64,000 nucleotides of DNA from NCBI RefSeq assembly GCF_900129645.1, contig NZ_FSQZ01000001.1, positions 1,512,001 to 1,576,000 on the forward strand. The letters run 5' to 3'. The notes beneath the pieces were generated by a model. It was given only the letters and a program-made list of their open reading frames with translations. It was not told the origin of the DNA and ran no database searches. Within the stretch, counting starts at the first letter, position 1. The number at the start of each line of letters is the position of its first letter. Source of the DNA: Acetomicrobium flavidum (GTDB lineage Bacteria > Synergistota > Synergistia > Synergistales > Acetomicrobiaceae). Shown piece after piece: positions 1,340 to 53,999 of this stretch. Position numbers and translations under genes: made by a program.

Positions 1340-1385
1340 TAGTTTTAGCAGTGCGTCATCGTAATTTGAGATGTAAAAATTAAAT

Positions 1386-1480
1386 GCCTCCGAATCAATG
1401 TATCTAAGGGCATATTGCCTATGAGCATTGATCGATAGGGTCTTTTTGGAAACGAAAAGGCCTCCCGTCTGGAAAGGAGG
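1386..1480 (+). promoter_or_regulatory. Candidate molybdenum/tungsten cofactor (Moco) riboswitch
   Basis: A structured leader precedes the tungstate transporter. Helix ATCAATG (1394-1400) pairs with CATTGAT (1426-1432), with a smaller GGCA/TGCC hairpin inside. A second hairpin, CTTTTTG/CGAAAAG (1442-1459), is closed by a GAAA tetraloop. Then comes CCTCC (1461-1465) with GGAGG (1476-1480). A CCTCC at 1387-1391 can instead pair with the last GGAGG, forming a closing helix. The order of helices, the GGCCTCCCG segment and the GNRA hairpin resemble the Moco RNA motif as I remember it. That motif is known upstream of Mo/W cofactor and transport genes. Assignment is by pattern, not by covariance model. 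Confidence 0.65.
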
Positions 1481-1489
1481 AAGAGCTTT

Positions 1490-1523
1490 AAAACCTCTTT
1501 CCTAACGGGAAGGGGTTTTATTT
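1490..1523 (+). terminator. Intrinsic terminator of the tup leader (riboswitch expression platform)
   Basis: AAAACCTCTTTCC (1490-1502) and GGGAAGGGGTTTT (1507-1519) form a 13-bp stem with G-U pairs and a TAAC loop, running into a T-rich stretch. The left arm and loop region (1494-1513) is also nearly complementary to 1461-1480 of the upstream aptamer, so the two structures are mutually exclusive. This fits ligand-controlled premature termination before tupA. Confidence 0.65.
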
Positions 1524-40580: not shown

Positions 40581-40620
40581 CTGTAGGAGCTTAGTAACGG
40601 GCGAAGCTTTACTTAAAACA

Positions 40621-40650
40621 AAAAAGAGGAGGAAAGTTCCTCCTCTTTTT
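40621..40650. terminator. Terminator after guaA / the small Cys-rich gene
   Basis: AAAAAGAGGAGGAA and TTCCTCCTCTTTTT form a 14-bp stem with a 2-base AG centre. It has a T-run on both strands, so it can serve both convergent units. Confidence 0.85.
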
Positions 40651-40663
40651 TGTACCTTAATGT

Positions 40664-40801
40664 TTATTCATGGCAACAGCCTGGACGGCCTTCGCATCCA
40701 TCCAGCTGCTCAAAAGCATCCATCATGAGCTTTTCCTTTTCCTCATCGGTGAGCTCTTTCTTTTTATCGATTGGATTGACGACTTTCTTTTCTTCCGGCA
40801 T
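40664..40801 (-). CDS. Small Cys-rich protein, 45 residues, next to the selenocysteine rhodanese
   Basis: A very short gene on the minus strand, not a known family to me. The start ATG is preceded by AAAGGAGG about seven bases upstream, strong evidence that it is translated. The first ~35 residues are charged and helical (MPEEKKVVNPIDKKKELTDE). The C-terminus is CEGRPGCCHE, with three Cys and a His that could bind metal or carry persulfide/redox chemistry. It lies 29 bases after the rhodanese stop on the same strand, so the two are probably cotranscribed. Partner or substrate roles for the rhodanese are a guess. Confidence 0.7.
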   Translation of the reverse strand: MPEEKKVVNPIDKKKELTDEEKEKLMMDAFEQLDGCEGRPGCCHE

Positions 40802-40830: not shown

Positions 40831-41142
40831 TTAAAGGAGCGGGTACCCTGCCTGTTTCCAGGCATTTACACCTCCGGCCAAGACCTTAACATTAGAGAAG
40901 CCCTTATTTTCGTATGACGCTGCCACACGGGCAGACGTAGCGTCGTCATGTCAGGCGCAGTAGAATATGATCTCCTGATCCTTGCTTATGTCCTTTTCTT
41001 TGCTGCGAAATTCACCGAAAGATATGGCGCCTTCGAGGTGCACCTTATTAAAACGCTCGTCATCCTCATAGGCGCAGACTAACAAGGCCTTGCCGGACTG
41101 CACCGCTTGTCTTGCCTCTTGCGGGCTGACTTTTTTCGCCAT
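40831..41142 (-). CDS. Rhodanese-like protein with selenocysteine (UGA) at the active site
   Basis: A sulfurtransferase-fold protein of 103 residues if the UGA at 40951-40953 is read as Sec (residue 64). Before it lies a rhodanese N-terminal half (VSPQEARQAVQSGKALLV, HLEGAISFGE, then IIFYCA). After it the frame continues HDDATSARVAASYENKGF and VLAGGVNAWKQAGYPLL, which are the expected rhodanese end. Family members usually read YCACxxxATSARVA, so UGA replaces the second Cys of the CxC motif. A stem-loop follows at once. The start ATG has a GGAGG SD (GGAGGGGATAGCT). The alternative, a pseudogene, is less likely because both halves are intact and in frame. Confidence 0.8.
40914..40953 (-). promoter_or_regulatory. 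Candidate bacterial SECIS element
   Basis: Starting one base after the UGA codon, minus strand: ATGACG (40949-40944), a 9-base bulge, CTGCC, loop CGTGT, GGCAG, CGTCAT (40919-40914). The apical loop has G at its second position and lies about 21 bases from UGA, inside the 16-37 base range I know for bacterial SECIS elements. Confidence 0.65.
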
Positions 41143-41232
41143 AGCTATCCCCTCCTTTAAAACCTATATATTAGCCACGCCTAAATTATATCAAATTCAA
41201 ATTGTTTTAGCTACACAAACGTTGAAAATGAT

Positions 41233-42429
41233 TTATTTAATTTTAAGGTACTTTTGAGGTACCTGAAGCTTCGTCAAACCAAGATATCCCTTCCCGAAGA
41301 CATAGGTATCCTGATAGACGAGTATGTAATTTGTCTTTTCGATGCCGGTGTTTAGATCGACGTAATAGCTACCGTTCCATTGCGATCCTGGCGTGTATTT
41401 TTCGTATGCCTTAATAAGGTCTCCAATAGATGCTTTTGCTTTACCATCAATAACCCTTTTGGCTAATTCGACTAAACCTGCAGATTCTGCATATCCGCAG
41501 GAATAAGCCCAAGTGCCAAGCCTTCCACTGGCTCCCTTTTGTATAATCACATTTTCAATTTTTTTCATGATCGCGGGGAAGTTGCCCTTTTCAGCCGTCA
41601 GATCCAACCCCAATGCTCCGGGATAACCTCTTAGTGGTGATGGTACGGATGACTCCACGTAATATCCTCCGTAAGTAACAATTTGTCTGATAAGCGGTTC
41701 AACGTGAGCGACGTTGGTATTAAAGAAAGCTGTATTAGGACCGTATTTCTTAAGCCAAGCGGGCACTTTCTCCAGAATGAACTGCTGGGCTCCTGCCACC
41801 CCAACATCGCTCACCGGGTCCGGCGCCGTTTCGAAGTGAAATTTCAAACCAATATCTTTACATGTGGCTTCCATGATGTTACGCCTTCTGGAGAGCAGCT
41901 CATAGCTCATGTGGCGTGGAAAGGATATATGAACAAAATCGGTTGCTCCCATCATCTTTGCCGCTACTGGAATGAGATACCCTCTATAGATGTCGTTAAC
42001 GCTCGTGACCAGATCCGCCACGGAGCTAATGACGCCAGGATCCTCTTGAGCTTCGGCGGCAAAGCATAAAATGTCTGGTCTTCTTTCCTTCACACGCCTA
42101 AAGGCCTCTGTCGTTCCAGGTATAGATTGGTTTACTACAATTGCTTTCATAAGGGGATCGTCGGCTAAGCCAACGATCTGGCTTATTACCGTTTCCATTT
42201 CTTGCATAAAATTATCCGGGTAGGTCACATGCACTATCATGCCTCCGGATGCTGCATCTCCATACTCTTGTATGACTCTCTCTGCGCCGCGAAGTTCGTC
42301 TTCACCCTGTGACACAGTTCCCGTAACAATTCCGATATGATATGGTGCTGCAGCATAAACAATATCACATGTTGTTAGAAGAAACATAAAAAGCATTGCA
42401 ATTACGACGTATACAGCTCTTCTCATCAT
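41233..42429 (-). CDS. DUF3798 periplasmic-binding-like protein (copy A)
   Basis: A 398-residue exported protein of the DUF3798 family, whose fold resembles periplasmic binding proteins. The signal peptide ends near VYAAAPYHIG. Conserved stretches include VTGTVSQGEDELRGAE, VTYPDNFMQEMET, FVHISFPRHMSYELLSRRR and SDVGVAGAQQFILEKVPAW. No ABC permease is nearby. It is about 70% identical by eye to copies B and C downstream of the CRISPR locus. The start is an ATG pair at 42429/42426 with GGAGGT upstream. Its ligand is unknown; an amino acid or peptide is plausible. Confidence 0.9.
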   Translation of the reverse strand: MMRRAVYVVIAMLFMFLLTTCDIVYAAAPYHIGIVTGTVSQGEDELRGAERVIQEYGDAASGGMIVHVTYPDNFMQEMETVISQIVGLADDPLMKAIVVNQSIPGTTEAFRRVKERRPDILCFAAEAQEDPGVISSVADLVTSVNDIYRGYLIPVAAKMMGATDFVHISFPRHMSYELLSRRRNIMEATCKDIGLKFHFETAPDPVSDVGVAGAQQFILEKVPAWLKKYGPNTAFFNTNVAHVEPLIRQIVTYGGYYVESSVPSPLRGYPGALGLDLTAEKGNFPAIMKKIENVIIQKGASGRLGTWAYSCGYAESAGLVELAKRVIDGKAKASIGDLIKAYEKYTPGSQWNGSYYVDLNTGIEKTNYILVYQDTYVFGKGYLGLTKLQVPQKYLKIK

Positions 42430-42931
42430 TATTACCTCCATATGACCATACGGTATTTGGTATATGGAACATGTTACTTTTTTGAGTTTGCTTTGTCAAT
42501 GAACATCATGTTCAGAGATACCTATATCAAATATAAACATTGTTAAAGTCAACATAATAGTATAAAAATAGTAAAAATGGCGATTGGTGCAGCCTCCAGG
42601 TGGAGGCTAAAGTCGCTTTATTGTAATCTTGATTGGATAGCATCCAAGCAGAGCGGCCAGAGTGGCTAAGAAATATGTTCACATATATAGTTTCAGGTAT
42701 CATACAGGATTATTTTGTAACCGTGGATAGAGCTTGACATTGTGATAGCAATTTAGTATAGTATGCCCAGTTATTGCGTTCTATATAAATAAAGTTAATT
42801 TATCTTAGTCATTGCCACGCAAATATGTCGTGTTAACTTGTCTTAGATATTATTTTATAAGTTATTTGTTTAATAAAAAACATATGCGCTATATAACAAT
42901 TATTAAAAATATTTAAAATGAGGTTTATTAT
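42430..42931. other. Intergenic region between DUF3798 copy A and the cas operon
   Basis: AT-rich 502-base gap between divergent units. It holds a minus-strand promoter for copy A (TTGACA 42499-42494, TAACAT 42476-42471). Next to it is GAACATCATGTTC (42501-42513), a perfect 13-base palindrome, and a second, looser GAACATGTTA (42467-42476). A hairpin AGCCTCC/GGAGGCT (42591-42608) and the cas promoter lie further right. A 30-codon ORF at 42577 has no SD. Confidence 0.55.
42734..42762 (+). promoter_or_regulatory. Promoter of the cas operon
   Basis: TTGACA (42734-42739) and TATAGT (42757-42762) with 17-base spacing, nearly consensus. About 165 bases of untranslated leader separate it from cas6. 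Confidence 0.75.
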
Positions 42932-43705
42932 ATGAAATTAACACTTTTATTTAATGTAACTTCAAGTGATAGCTTGGTTTTGGGGAGGAAAAATCAATAT
43001 TTACTTCAAGCTATGGTTTACAATTTGTTGGATCCGGAATATGCTGATTTTCTCCATAATGAAGGGTTCGTTTACGAAGGTAAGCGCCACTTTAAATTGT
43101 TTAGTTTCTCTAAGCTTTATAGTAGTGTCCCTATAAAACTAAAAGATGACTTGGTATTTTTTCAACCTCCAATAAGGTTAGTGATTACATCTCCTGTTAA
43201 CTCAATTCTAAAACAACTGGCCACCAATGCTTTATCGCTAGGCGAGATAAAGCTGGGAAATAATTTACTTACATGCAAAGAAGTAAAAATTGAATCTCCT
43301 TGTGTTGATAGCGAAGAGATTGAGTGTCATACTCTTTCCCCGATAGTGTGTTATTCTACACTAAAAAAATATGATAGAAGCAATTTCACCTACTATTATT
43401 CCCCTAAAGAAAGAGAGTTTAGCGAGCAAATTTATGCCAATCTGATTAAGAAATTTCAGATAATAGCCCCCCAAGAAGATATTCCGGACGGTACAATAAA
43501 AATTGAATTTACCAGCAGAGCAAAGGAGGAAGTTAAGTTTTTTAGCCCCGAGGATAATCGCCCTATAAAGGGGTGGAGTGGCAAATTTAGGCTTTATGGC
43601 CCGAAAGTTTTGCTTCAAGTAGCCTTGGATGCTGGACTTGGCGCGAAAAACAGCGCTGGGTTTGGATGTATAGAGCTTCTATCAAATGAGAGAGGAAGGA
43701 GGTGA
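42932..43705 (+). CDS. cas6: CRISPR pre-crRNA endoribonuclease Cas6
   Basis: First gene of the type I-B locus, 257 residues, a RAMP-family RNase that cuts the repeat RNA to make crRNA. The N-terminal ferredoxin-like pattern (LVLGRKNQYLLQAMVYNLL) and the C-terminal glycine-rich loop DAGLGAKNSAGFGCIELL fit Cas6. The ATG at 42932 has an AT-rich context with a weak SD (ATGAGGTT). cas8b begins four bases after the stop. Catalytic residues are not certain by eye. Confidence 0.9.
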   Translation: MKLTLLFNVTSSDSLVLGRKNQYLLQAMVYNLLDPEYADFLHNEGFVYEGKRHFKLFSFSKLYSSVPIKLKDDLVFFQPPIRLVITSPVNSILKQLATNALSLGEIKLGNNLLTCKEVKIESPCVDSEEIECHTLSPIVCYSTLKKYDRSNFTYYYSPKEREFSEQIYANLIKKFQIIAPQEDIPDGTIKIEFTSRAKEEVKFFSPEDNRPIKGWSGKFRLYGPKVLLQVALDAGLGAKNSAGFGCIELLSNERGRR

Positions 43706-43709
43706 AGAT

Positions 43710-45200
43710 ATGGGATTTTTAAAGGCCGTTTATGAACTTGGCAAAGTCGAATTAGGGTCGAAAAATAAGAATGCAGAATCTTATTTTTCTGATATCGACA
43801 GTTTCCTGCAACTTCCCATGCCGATAATAGAAGACGATCAAAGACAAGGCAGAGAAATAAGGATATGGCTGAATGTAAGGGATAGGAATGCTAAATGTTT
43901 GGAAGTTACTGGCATAGCGAAGATAGACCTAAAAGACTATTTGAACAGTAACGATTCGGACAAAATTAATGAGACAAAACAAAAAATGCTTTACAGGGAA
44001 CCACCTGGTTCCAGTACCCAGTGGAGATACTCTCCTGTATATAAGTTGGGAAAGGCAACTACAAACCCTAATGGTGCTTTGCTTGGGAAAAGCGGAACAT
44101 GGAGGGACGATAACGACTCCAGGTATTATAAGATTTACAAGACAGTATTAAAACCACTTGAAGACATTGGCGTGTTTTCAAGTGGGAGCGCAGACCTTAT
44201 AATGTCGGAGCTTGAAGAAAAAGCGGACAGAATTGCCGAACTTTGGAAGGACAAAAAAAGATTATACATTTTAGTCTTTGGAATTAACGATAACGGCAAT
44301 TTTTTGTATCCAGGTGAGCTAGAGATTTTTCGTAATCATTTCAAGTCAAGATTAGAGCAAAACATTGGCGGGAAGATGTCTGCGACTTGCAGTTTGTGTC
44401 ACGCAAAGGCTGAATCTGGAGCAAACCTGGATAAAATCTTTAAATTTTCAACGTTCGACAAGGAAAGCTTTCTTCCGGGGATTAAAGATGGCCGTGGCGT
44501 CCGCGAAAAAGTGTTTCCACTATGCGATGACTGCATATCGGTCATGTCCATGGGAAGGGAGGTTTTGAATGGACGTTTTCTTGACAGGCAAACCATCCCA
44601 AAGATGAACATATATGTAGTCCCTGAACTGATCTTCGGGAATACAGACCTTGATGACGTTGCAGTCAACGTGGAGAACTTCATTAAAAGTGGCCTCAAGA
44701 AAGCCGAGAGATTGTTTAGCTACCTTGCAAAGCAGGATGAAATTTTAGTTTACCATTTTATTTTTTGGGAAAAGAACCAAGCCCAGGAGCGATTGCACGT
44801 AATGGTGGAAGATGTGCCTCCATCGAGGTTAAAATGCCTGGAAAGGCTGTGGCAGGAGACTTATAAGGTATTGCTTTGGAAGGATGCTGGAAAGACTGAA
44901 TTTCGACCCGGAGACATAGGTGTCGATCTTGATCAGGCATTTAGAACTATTTATTCTACCTTAATATCCCTATCTGGAAAAGACGAAGCTGACAAAAACA
45001 TCATGCGCAAGCGGATAATAAACATCATTAGCAAATTACTTGGCGGCAAAACAGTGGATGTAGAATTCGTTAAACAGCTGATGGTCTCTAGATTTGCCGG
45101 GTTATTTGCAGATACTCAATGGATCAGATATGGACACTGGGAGCTTAGAAAGATGATGGCGGTATTGGAGTTTTTAGGTAAGGTGAACGGTAGGAGGTGA
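43710..45200 (+). CDS. cas8b: Type I-B Cascade large subunit Cas8b
   Basis: A 496-residue protein of the TM1802/Csh1-type Cas8b class, which recognises the PAM and anchors Cascade. A zinc-finger pair, CSLCHAK and CDDC, lies around residues 220-275. The N-terminus is FLKAVYELGKVELG. The family's C-terminal helical region is missing here and is encoded by the next gene. The start at ATG 43710 has AAGGAGGTG upstream. Its stop is preceded by AGGAGGTGA, which doubles as the SD of the next gene, so the two are translationally coupled. Confidence 0.88.
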   Translation: MGFLKAVYELGKVELGSKNKNAESYFSDIDSFLQLPMPIIEDDQRQGREIRIWLNVRDRNAKCLEVTGIAKIDLKDYLNSNDSDKINETKQKMLYREPPGSSTQWRYSPVYKLGKATTNPNGALLGKSGTWRDDNDSRYYKIYKTVLKPLEDIGVFSSGSADLIMSELEEKADRIAELWKDKKRLYILVFGINDNGNFLYPGELEIFRNHFKSRLEQNIGGKMSATCSLCHAKAESGANLDKIFKFSTFDKESFLPGIKDGRGVREKVFPLCDDCISVMSMGREVLNGRFLDRQTIPKMNIYVVPELIFGNTDLDDVAVNVENFIKSGLKKAERLFSYLAKQDEILVYHFIFWEKNQAQERLHVMVEDVPPSRLKCLERLWQETYKVLLWKDAGKTEFRPGDIGVDLDQAFRTIYSTLISLSGKDEADKNIMRKRIINIISKLLGGKTVDVEFVKQLMVSRFAGLFADTQWIRYGHWELRKMMAVLEFLGKVNGRR

Positions 45201-45208
45201 GTTAATTT

Positions 45209-45670
45209 ATGAAGCTGGATTTCTTCGATGAATTCACGGATCCATACCTTAAGACTAAAAGTGGTAGGGGTGTTTTTTTAGCTGGGGTTGTGTTGGGCTT
45301 TATAGCAAGATCTCAGGTCAAGGGGGATTTTCAAGGCTCGCCTGAAGATATAAGTACATCTCCGCTTTTCAAACAACTTAATTTTGGACGTATGAACAAA
45401 AGAGATCTGTTTAAGCATCTTGCGAGGGTCCCTGAGCTCGTAAGGGCTTATCATCTCGATTATGCCGATATGATTGAATCCCTATGTGCAAAGGCTGGAG
45501 AGTTAATCTTGCAAAAAGATGACAAAGGGCGTGACTTAGGCGTGGACGGCAACTTCGTGTTCTCCGTGGCCTTTTTGAACGCTCGCAAGTACTTCTGGAC
45601 GATTTTTGGTAAGAAAGATGTTTCTGAGATAGAACCTACGATGGAGGAGGAAACTCAAGATGTCATTTGA
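45209..45670 (+). CDS. cas11b: Separate Cascade small subunit, Cas11b-like (Cas8b C-terminal region)
   Basis: A 153-residue, mostly helical protein (GVFLAGVVLGFIARSQ, SPLFKQLNFGRMNKRDLFKH, NFVFSVAFLNARKYFW) matching the C-terminal helical part of Csh1/TM1802-type Cas8b. In other type I-B systems this small subunit arises from an internal start within cas8b. Here it has its own ORF, starting eight bases after cas8b with AGGAGGTGA upstream. The ATG at 45209 is well supported. Its end overlaps cas7 by 11 bases. The identification is from pattern and position; fusion loss is an inference. Confidence 0.75.
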   Translation: MKLDFFDEFTDPYLKTKSGRGVFLAGVVLGFIARSQVKGDFQGSPEDISTSPLFKQLNFGRMNKRDLFKHLARVPELVRAYHLDYADMIESLCAKAGELILQKDDKGRDLGVDGNFVFSVAFLNARKYFWTIFGKKDVSEIEPTMEEETQDVI

Positions 45671-46568
45671 AAACAGGCGGGAGTATTTGTTTGTTTACTC
45701 GGTCAAAGATGCCAATCCCAACGGCGATCCTTTGGATGCCAATCATCCAAGATATGATGAAGAGTCCGGTCAAATAATGGTTTCAGATGTAAGGATTAAA
45801 CGTACTGTTCGAGATCAATGGCTTAGGGAAGGTAAGGACATCTTTGTTGACGGAGAAGCTAAGACACTTGCAAATCGTGTAAGCGAGTTAAAAGAAAGGT
45901 TTAATCGCGATACAGGAAGAGAGATACTTTCGCAATGCATCGATACCAGGTTGTTTGGAGCAACCTATGCTCTTGGTAAAGAGGCATTTTCATGGACTGG
46001 CCCGGTACAATTCAAGTGGGGTCGATCGCTACATAGGGCTGAGGCAAAATTTGTCCAAGGTACAGCGGCCTTTGCTACAAAGGAAGCCAGCGAGCAGCGC
46101 TCATTTCGCAACGAATACATTGTACCATTTGCATTGATAGCTGTTTACGGCATCGCCAATCAGTATGCCTCTAGCCAGACCAACGCGTCCGATGACGATC
46201 TCGATGCCCTGTTTGAGGCCCTTTGGAAAGGTACGGCCAATTTGATAACAAGAAGCAAAATAGGGCATACCCCTAGACTTCTCATCGAATTTAAATACGT
46301 TGCAGGTTTTGATGGAGCCTTAGGGTCTTTAGATGAAAGAGTTGTGCTCAAATCATTAAAAGGAGATCCTTTAACTGATGATGAACAGTTGGCCTTGAGG
46401 TCCATTGATGAAGTTAAGTTGGACATTAGCGAGGTTGCAGACAAGGCATCTCTTATAGAGGACAAAATAGAATCAGTAAGAATCGTTAAGGATGCAGCTG
46501 TTCAGGTTGAACCGCTAGATAAGTTGGAGGAGATTTTTGGGGGCAAACTGAAAATAGAGGTCAGGTGA
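45660..46568 (+). CDS. cas7: Cascade backbone subunit Cas7 (Csh2 type)
   Basis: A 302-residue Csh2/Cas7 protein that forms the crRNA-bound filament of type I-B Cascade. The N-terminus YLFVYSVKDANPNGDPLDAN, followed by VSDVRIKRTVRDQWL, is the family signature. The middle ARLFGA-like segment (DTRLFGATYALGK) also fits. It overlaps the preceding gene by 11 bases. Confidence 0.95.
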   Translation: MSFENRREYLFVYSVKDANPNGDPLDANHPRYDEESGQIMVSDVRIKRTVRDQWLREGKDIFVDGEAKTLANRVSELKERFNRDTGREILSQCIDTRLFGATYALGKEAFSWTGPVQFKWGRSLHRAEAKFVQGTAAFATKEASEQRSFRNEYIVPFALIAVYGIANQYASSQTNASDDDLDALFEALWKGTANLITRSKIGHTPRLLIEFKYVAGFDGALGSLDERVVLKSLKGDPLTDDEQLALRSIDEVKLDISEVADKASLIEDKIESVRIVKDAAVQVEPLDKLEEIFGGKLKIEVR

Positions 46569-51489: not shown

Positions 51490-53999
51490 GTTTTTGAACT
51501 TCCTATGAGGGATGGAAACTTTATAAGGAAAGCGAAGGATTATATATGATGGCAGGTTTTTGAACTTCCTATGAGGGATGGAAACGATCACAGTGAGCGA
51601 ATGGGCCGACATGTACAGGAGTTTTTGAACTTCCTATGAGGGATGGAAACTGTTTCTGCCAAAGTCTTTTCATTTTATTTCCTCCTCGTTTTTGAACTTC
51701 CTATGAGGGATGGAAACCGCTGCGAACAGCGTTTCGAGATACTGCGGATCGTAGTTTTTGAACTTCCTATGAGGGATGGAAACATCTTATGTCGATATGC
51801 CATTCATGTCATATGAAAATAGTTTTTGAACTTCCTATGAGGGATGGAAACACCGCTTCGTATGAGCTGCTTGCAAAATAAGCTCCAAGTTTTTGAACTT
51901 CCTATGAGGGATGGAAACGGAATGTAGACGCCCTGTTGTGCCGCCCGTACCTCCGTTTTTGAACTTCCTATGAGGGATGGAAACTCACAAGTGGCCTCGT
52001 GCCCGTGCCTAGCGGCTAGGGTTTTTGAACTTCCTATGAGGGATGGAAACCGAAATCGCAAGCGAGACCTCGCGCCCGTTCCACAAGTTTTTGAACTTCC
52101 TATGAGGGATGGAAACTCTCCTCAATGTTTCTGTCACTGTGTTTCCGTGCGTGTTTTTGAACTTCCTATGAGGGATGGAAACAAACTTCTAAAAGACAAA
52201 ATAGAACATTTCATTTCAGTTTTTGAACTTCCTATGAGGGATGGAAACACGAATGCTTTGAGTTAATCCTTGAAATAGAGGGCGGGTTTTTGAACTTCCT
52301 ATGAGGGATGGAAACTCGTCCCAAATATCCTTCCGTCCTCTACCCACTCCCGTTTTTGAACTTCCTATGAGGGATGGAAACACGTTACAGGCGCCGAAAC
52401 GGTTTGACCTTTAACTCGTTTTTGAACTTCCTATGAGGGATGGAAACCACTTCCGCCTTCCACGCGTCCCAGCTGTACCCGTAAAGTTTTTGAACTTCCT
52501 ATGAGGGATGGAAACAGGCTGAAAACAAAGCGCTCCGTGAGGGGCTGGAGCGCGAGTTTTTGAACTTCCTATGAGGGATGGAAACTCTTCAATCCCGAGG
52601 TCATCTATGACCAGTACCCTGGTTTTTGAACTTCCTATGAGGGATGGAAACCCTCTTCCAACGTCCTCCTTAGCCTCGCCTGTTCCTCGTTTTTGAACTT
52701 CCTATGAGGGATGGAAACTCCTCCTCCTCGATTGCCGCGTCTTCATCACCAAGCACGTTTTTGAACTTCCTATGAGGGATGGAAACGAACATACTATCCG
52801 GGGCAGTCAGAAGCGGCAAGACATGTTTTTGAACTTCCTATGAGGGATGGAAACGGGTTGGCGACACGTGTGAAGTTACGCAACAAGCGAGTTTTTGAAC
52901 TTCCTATGAGGGATGGAAACGCATTACCTTTCTGACATAGTCCATCTCGCCATCAAGTGTTTTTGAACTTCCTATGAGGGATGGAAACCTTCATCCCCGT
53001 AGGCATACACAAGGCCGATCCCTTGTTTTTGAACTTCCTATGAGGGATGGAAACCGCTTGTATTCGACCGCAGACTTCGATATGCCCAACGTGTTTTTGA
53101 ACTTCCTATGAGGGATGGAAACGCGCAGGCCCATGCCATTCCGCCCTCGCCCACGCTTTTGCTGGTTTTTGAACTTCCTATGAGGGATGGAAACAGAGCA
53201 TCAGCGACAGCGTCAGGCTCAGTAGGGACTTGTTTTTGAACTTCCTATGAGGGATGGAAACAGAGCATCAGCGACAGCGTCAGGCTCAGTAGGGACTTGT
53301 TTTTGAACTTCCTATGAGGGATGGAAACTCCTTTTCATTTTCTTTGTCCCTCCTCAAGCTGTTTATAGTTTTTGAACTTCCTATGAGGGATGGAAACCGG
53401 CATATTCGGCGGGCGCGTCGGACGGCAGGCGGGGTTTTTGAACTTCCTATGAGGGATGGAAACTGATAAAACAGCAGCACAGGTTGTAAATTCTTCCTCG
53501 TTTTTGAACTTCCTATGAGGGATGGAAACACGACTTTTGCCAGCCAATTTATGAAATATGGCTTAGGTTTTTGAACTTCCTATGAGGGATGGAAACGCCA
53601 GGCACCGGCCGCCGCCAATGGGATCTTCTTCCCAGTTTTTGAACTTCCTATGAGGGATGGAAACCCGTCACCTCCTGTCATTCTCGCCCGCATTGCACTC
53701 GTTTTTGAACTTCCTATGAGGGATGGAAACGGGCAAAGGGCGGGATAAGGTCGTATCTGAGCTTTCCCGGTTTTTGAACTTCCTATGAGAGATGGAAACG
53801 GAGAAGAAGTCTTGCAAAACGTAAAAACAATACTCGTTTTTGAACTTCCTATGAGGGATGGAAACATAGCGATTATGACCCGGAATACGACAGAATAGAA
53901 CGTTTTTGAACTTCCTATGAGGGATGGAAACACATAGAGAGCCAAGGCGCTGCGGTAAACCCCATCATAGTTTTTGAACTTCCTATGAGGGATGGAAAC
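51490..53999 (+). CRISPR. CRISPR array, 38 repeats and 37 spacers
   Basis: The 30-base repeat starts GTTTTTGAACTT and ends GATGGAAAC. It is identical in 37 copies; the copy at 53770-53799 carries one G-to-A change. Spacers are 35-42 bases, mostly 36-38. First repeat 51490-51519, last 53970-53999. Spacers 26 (53195-53231) and 27 (53262-53298) are identical. Several spacer sequences translate into phage-type motifs. Many spacers are GC-richer than the repeats and flanking DNA. It belongs to the type I-B cas genes upstream. Confidence 0.98.
53165..53298 (+). repeat. Duplicated repeat-spacer unit
   Basis: The 67-base unit 53165-53231 is followed by an identical copy at 53232-53298 (spacers 26 and 27). 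It is a tandem duplication inside the array, not two independent acquisitions. Confidence 0.95.

Follow-up and report, generated by a model that had tools for sequence, protein, structure and literature searches.

A predicted Cys-x-Sec selenorhodanese and its small cysteine-rich operon partner in Acetomicrobium flavidum

A 64,000-nucleotide stretch of the Acetomicrobium flavidum genome (hereafter, the window) carries on its minus strand, at 40831..41142, a gene that in all likelihood encodes a true selenoprotein of the rhodanese fold, a selenorhodanese in which an in-frame UGA would be read as selenocysteine (Sec). The probability of this reading is put at about 0.96. The wider reading, in which the same gene also forms a two-gene operon with a short downstream gene, is highly probable as well, its chemistry being left aside. 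The computation documents the fold, the conservation of the UGA, selection on the codons after it, covariation in a downstream hairpin, the Sec machinery of the host, and the linkage of the two genes; that Sec is inserted in the cell is what we infer.

The gene comprises 103 codons followed by a UAA stop and is preceded by a Shine-Dalgarno sequence, aaaggagggg. Its single in-frame UGA (40951..40953) corresponds to residue 64, and with Sec at this position the translation reads MAKK...IIFYCA-U-HDDATSARVA...GYPLL. Under table 11, translation stops after 63 residues, just as had been anticipated for ordinary gene calling, a length at which the second half of the rhodanese domain is missing. The full protein matches the Pfam Rhodanese family (PF00581) at 50.1 bits (cut-off 22.2) over residues 6-98, spanning the UGA. 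The coordinates, the frame, and the residues of the original prediction all hold. The AlphaFold (AF2) model has a pLDDT of 93.8, and its best PDB matches, found with Foldseek, are rhodanese domains, persulfide-processing enzymes among them.

As the PF00581 family requires, the active-site loop opens with the catalytic cysteine. It is Cys62 (codon 40957..40959), which is aligned with the canonical rhodanese nucleophile and is invariant in alignment A5, where Sec is written as C; in two relatives (G013a and G022a), this codon is UGA and the residue is Sec. Sec64 lies two residues past Cys62, inside a loop that is two residues longer than usual (CAUHDDATS versus, for example, CRSGRRS in ordinary rhodaneses). 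The original prediction rightly placed the UGA second in a C-x-U pair, but its heading made the UGA the active-site position itself, while the place of the nucleophile belongs to Cys62. Another hallmark of the clade is the nearly invariant signature (L)VCAY, with the codons of Cys23-Ala24-Tyr25 at 41068..41076, which stands where ordinary rhodaneses have DVR. Neither a CxxGxR/S-type loop nor the Asp-Val-Arg motif, both signs of classical sulfurtransferases, was found in the alignment of the selenorhodanese, and sulfurtransferase activity is therefore not to be assumed.

Conservation of the UGA was followed in 101 genomes (the window's own, G000, and 100 relatives) and later by a profile search of 188 genomes in the phylum. 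CxU orthologues with the UGA at the identical codon are present in G000, in four genomes of the same genus (G001, G003, G004, and G005), in G006 and G015 (family f2), and in G037 (f10), while in G013 and G022 (f9) the gene contains a pair of UGA codons in a UxU arrangement (FYUAUP). The UGA is thus found at the same codon in 10 genomes belonging to five genera, four families, and one order, a degree of conservation that is far beyond chance. These are 10 of the 188 phylum genomes, the profile search having added none to the carriers already known from the 101. In the same 188 genomes, no orthologue turned out to have Cys encoded at the UGA position, and, aside from the carriers, the search brought up only two divergent paralogues (FYCDS and FYCDT), both in f9. 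Cysteine does occupy the Sec position in distant homologues from Granulicella, Caballeronia, and Cupriavidus (YCSCPNE, YCTCPSD, and YCVCPNE); these YC-T/S/V-CP proteins and the UGA gene described here make, on alignment, a classical Cys/Sec pair.

Comparison of the window gene with the seven other CxU orthologues gives pN/pS values of 0.22-0.34 after the UGA, which indicates that the downstream codons are under purifying selection. Degraded downstream sequence in close homologues had been named beforehand as evidence that would count against Sec, and what was found is the opposite: the UGA is retained, and the half of the gene after it is intact and under selection. That the UGA is an ordinary stop, leaving a pseudogene or a deliberately truncated 63-residue protein, agrees with standard gene calling but is extremely improbable in view of this conservation across 10 genomes, the incomplete domain that truncation would leave, and the co-varying hairpin described below.

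Some further matches were noted in these searches. Rhodanese and small-peptide fragments lie at or near the contig ends of C70, C164, C189, and C140 in G001, which suggests a duplicated or repeat-broken locus in the assembly. A match with an internal TGA in G105 was rejected as a member of the selenorhodanese clade; its TGA lies elsewhere, in a rhodanese of the CRTGKRS type. Beyond the phylum, low-sensitivity scans were made: that of GTDB contigs with a single protein returned ordinary rhodaneses only, that of viral contigs revealed no relative of the selenorhodanese, and the plasmid matches were Cys homologues or ordinary rhodaneses.

The UGA is followed by a conserved hairpin, the probable SECIS, CUGCC-CGUGU-GGCAG (40920..40934, minus strand), occupying nucleotides 20-24/30-34 with the U of UGA as nucleotide 1. 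It has a 5-bp stem and a 5-nt loop, CGUGU, with G at position 2 of the apical loop and a spacing of 21 nt; in each of these four features it agrees with the published bSECIS rules (PMC13188914). When eight sequences of the window's clade are aligned with three from the known LYCAU family (see below), eleven in total, all 55 cells of the hairpin are paired, and two of the pairs are changed on both sides (C-G/G-C and U-A/C-G/A-U). The covariation score was reached by none of 500 shuffles, slid controls scored far lower, and RNAalifold recovers the same stem.

By the energy criterion for bSECIS elements, the MFE should be at most -7.5 kcal/mol and the hairpin should be the favoured fold. The bare hairpin of the window has -7.3 kcal/mol, and the window sequence folds to -11.7 kcal/mol with the conserved hairpin enforced versus -14.9 kcal/mol when free, with a mean pair probability of 0.01. 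Since the competing stem is more stable here, the conserved hairpin would need selection by SelB. The same hairpin is favoured (mean pair probability of at least 0.97) in G001, G015, G037, and the three LYCAU genes and reaches 0.74-0.75 in G006 and G013a. The stem-loop originally proposed right after the UGA does exist as the lowest-energy fold of this single sequence, starting two bases past the UGA, but it is not conserved across the relatives and was rejected as the SECIS; the conserved hairpin is a different one.

The genome encodes the full machinery for Sec, whose sel genes had been named beforehand as a check: selA and selB are adjacent, tRNA-Sec scores 81.3 bits, over its cut-off, and the gene of SelD has a Sec codon of its own (SGUAAK). 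SelA was identified from its position beside selB and from its sequence rather than by a family search. Among the ten carriers, nine have a selB over the cut-off; the exception is G022, whose assembly is 86% complete and consists of 270 contigs. Together with the conserved UGA and the selected downstream half, these genes uphold the earlier assignment of a likely Sec. Open on both sides of the UGA, the frame would also allow another amino acid there, whether UGA is reassigned throughout the genome (to Trp, Gly, or Cys) or stops are generally read through, but this is very improbable too, given the Sec machinery, the bSECIS-like hairpin, and the alignment of the UGA with Cys of unrelated CxC rhodaneses. 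Moreover, five relatives (G006, G015, G037, G013, and G022) end this very gene with a UGA that acts as a true stop, so UGA has not been globally reassigned. Conservation, selection, and the continued use of UGA as a stop thus rule out, for practical purposes, both the pseudogene and the code-reassignment readings.

The selenorhodanese gene has a small neighbour on the same strand. Beginning 29 nt past the rhodanese stop, at 40664..40801, and having its own Shine-Dalgarno sequence, aaggagg, a second gene encodes a 45-residue peptide, MPEEKK...FEQLDGCEGRPGCCHE. A hairpin resembling an intrinsic terminator (40620..40648, minus strand; 11 pairs and then a T run), known from a consensus scan only, closes the two-gene unit. 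The peptide is encoded directly 3′ of the rhodanese in seven genomes, that is, in all CxU carriers but G037, and it is absent from G037 and the UxU genomes; the genes around the pair differ between f1 and f2. Full-length strong matches to the peptide among the 188 genomes are confined to those seven loci, the next match being an 18-residue fragment in G001, and Pfam has no family for it. Its C-terminus reads DGCxGCPGCC in most genomes and CEGRPGCC in the window, with Arg in place of one Cys. Such linkage supports a shared function, and we infer an interaction of the two proteins. The two-gene operon with a previously unnamed CxGCPGCC peptide of about 45 residues is apparently new.

Upstream of the operon, at approximately 41180..41216 on the minus strand, lies a block, GTAGCTAAAAC...TTTGATATAATTTAG, which was recognised by eye and missed by the consensus scan. 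Its common form, AGC[TC]AAAAC..TTTGATATAATTT, precedes the genes of five relatives and is shared by genomes of genus f1 and family f2 despite their unlike neighbouring genes. The block is a probable promoter, possibly one that these genomes have in common, or else a site for a regulator. The next gene upstream, also on the minus strand, encodes a DUF3798 (PF12683) protein (41233-42441) and does not stand beside the rhodanese in carriers of other families. This neighbour and the abundance of Sec genes would fit Synergistota. Farther away in the window are a molybdenum cofactor riboswitch (RF01055, 77.3 bits; 1376-1495, plus strand), the Type I-B CRISPR-Cas genes Cas6, Cas8b, and Cas7b (42932-46568, plus strand), and, from 51475 onward, a CRISPR array in which the unit GTTTTTGAACTTCCTATGAGGGATGGAAAC is repeated about 38 times; two adjacent repeat-spacer units in it, 53162-53228 and 53229-53295, are near-exact duplicates (99%).

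The UxU relatives found in G013 and G022 (L026:1672-1680 and L027:1672-1680, respectively) are membrane-anchored proteins with the sequence UGA-GCN-UGA, i.e., Sec-Ala-Sec, so that both the nucleophile position and the next-but-one residue are Sec. A single SECIS apparently serves two Sec codons one codon apart, and these membrane-anchored forms are apparently new.

The Cys-x-Sec pair on a rhodanese fold had at first been regarded as an unusual site, but it is not unprecedented: CxU rhodanese selenoproteins are already catalogued as NF041203, rhodanese_LYCAU (PMC9312934, PMC13188914). In PMC13188914 it is a CxU rhodanese described as rhodanese-like domain-containing protein form 3, with the UxU form not named there, and TKB26178.1, the same representative, is given as CxU in PMC9312934. 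NF041203 is also the best NCBIfam match of the window protein, which shares with it the rhodanese fold, the C-A-U motif with Cys as the nucleophile, the two-residue loop extension, and the SECIS at the same distance. Nevertheless, plain membership is unlikely. The score is 64.5 bits, far under the curated cut-off of 115, while genuine members at 140-151 bits co-exist with the UxU forms in G013 (two copies) and G022. The tree sets the window clade apart from LYCAU with supports of 100/99 and 98/98, and the N-terminal half is unlike, with VCAY in place of IDVR/IDVQ. The window clade also differs in its CxGCPGCC-peptide operon, in having UxU relatives, and in that its CxU members lack the leader segment. 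Membership was thus rejected on score and tree. Both groups fall outside the sampled ordinary rhodaneses (90/87), but their sister relation is tentative because the tree rests on about 100 columns and its root is arbitrary; the placement of the window clade outside LYCAU is the firmer statement, and the clade is apparently a new subfamily of CxU selenorhodanese.

As for function, the hairpin lying 21 nt past the UGA would guide SelB in bringing Sec-tRNA to this codon, to give a 103-residue single-domain rhodanese with the active-site loop C62-A-U64, made from the short operon together with the Cys-rich peptide. Cys62, at the classical nucleophile position, may take up sulfane sulfur or become oxidised. 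Sec64, as a resolving residue, could then attack Cys62, so that sulfide (or a reduced product) would be freed and a Cys-Sec selenenylsulfide formed; the latter might be reduced by the Cys-rich peptide or by thioredoxin, or the sulfur might pass to one of them. Such a mechanism would make the protein an oxidoreductase that handles persulfides or polysulfides, not a thiosulfate:cyanide sulfurtransferase. This redox or sulfane-sulfur role, read from the anatomy of the protein and the operon structure, is tentative, its chances being a little short of even.

Rhodanese folds are able to carry selenium as well as sulfur, and a CxU pair with a Cys-rich partner is also typical of redox proteins. The selenoprotein might accordingly act as a selenium carrier, delivering selenide or perselenide to SelD, or as a peroxidase or reductase, and this alternative, though not the favoured one, is a serious contender. 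Against a carrier stand the absence of any adjacent sel gene in the neighbourhoods examined and the restriction of the family to 10 of 188 phylum genomes, which makes a general need of Sec synthesis for the selenorhodanese unlikely. A possible, still speculative generalisation is a dedicated two-protein chalcogen relay in which a selenorhodanese, CxU or, in one lineage, UxU, would have as its obligate acceptor of sulfane sulfur, selenium, or electrons the small CxGCPGCC carrier peptide of the adjacent downstream gene, the UxU form using Sec as both nucleophile and resolving residue under a single SECIS.

The family is likely to be missed in databases because annotation yields a 63-residue fragment and the curated CxU model scores it below its cut-off. 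It offers a compact, testable system in which to ask why selenium is placed beside the rhodanese nucleophile, or replaces it. The series CxC, CxU, UxU on a single fold, with a linked Cys-rich peptide, opens this question to homologue comparison, and the partner peptide offers a fresh clue to the destination of sulfur, selenium, or electrons.

Apart from NF041203, three known systems can be compared with the selenorhodanese. The Cys-only CxC rhodaneses with YC[STV]CP (for example, Granulicella WP_041598103.1 and those of Caballeronia and Cupriavidus plasmids) share the loop geometry, Cys standing where the selenorhodanese has Sec; they differ in having no Sec, in a hydrophobic, probably membrane-anchored N-terminus, and in belonging to bacteria of other phyla. 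TsoB (NF045694), a double selenoprotein resembling a rhodanese/DsbD fusion, is likewise rhodanese-related and has two Sec residues, but the match to it is weak (21.2 bits versus a cut-off of 805), and TsoB is a long fusion with another Sec spacing (UxxxxU). Finally, classical single-domain rhodaneses (GlpE, 1gmx, and the YgaP domain) share the fold (TM-score of about 0.78 to GlpE) and the nucleophilic Cys, whereas in the selenorhodanese CxUxxxxTS replaces the CxxGxRS loop and the DVR motif is lost.
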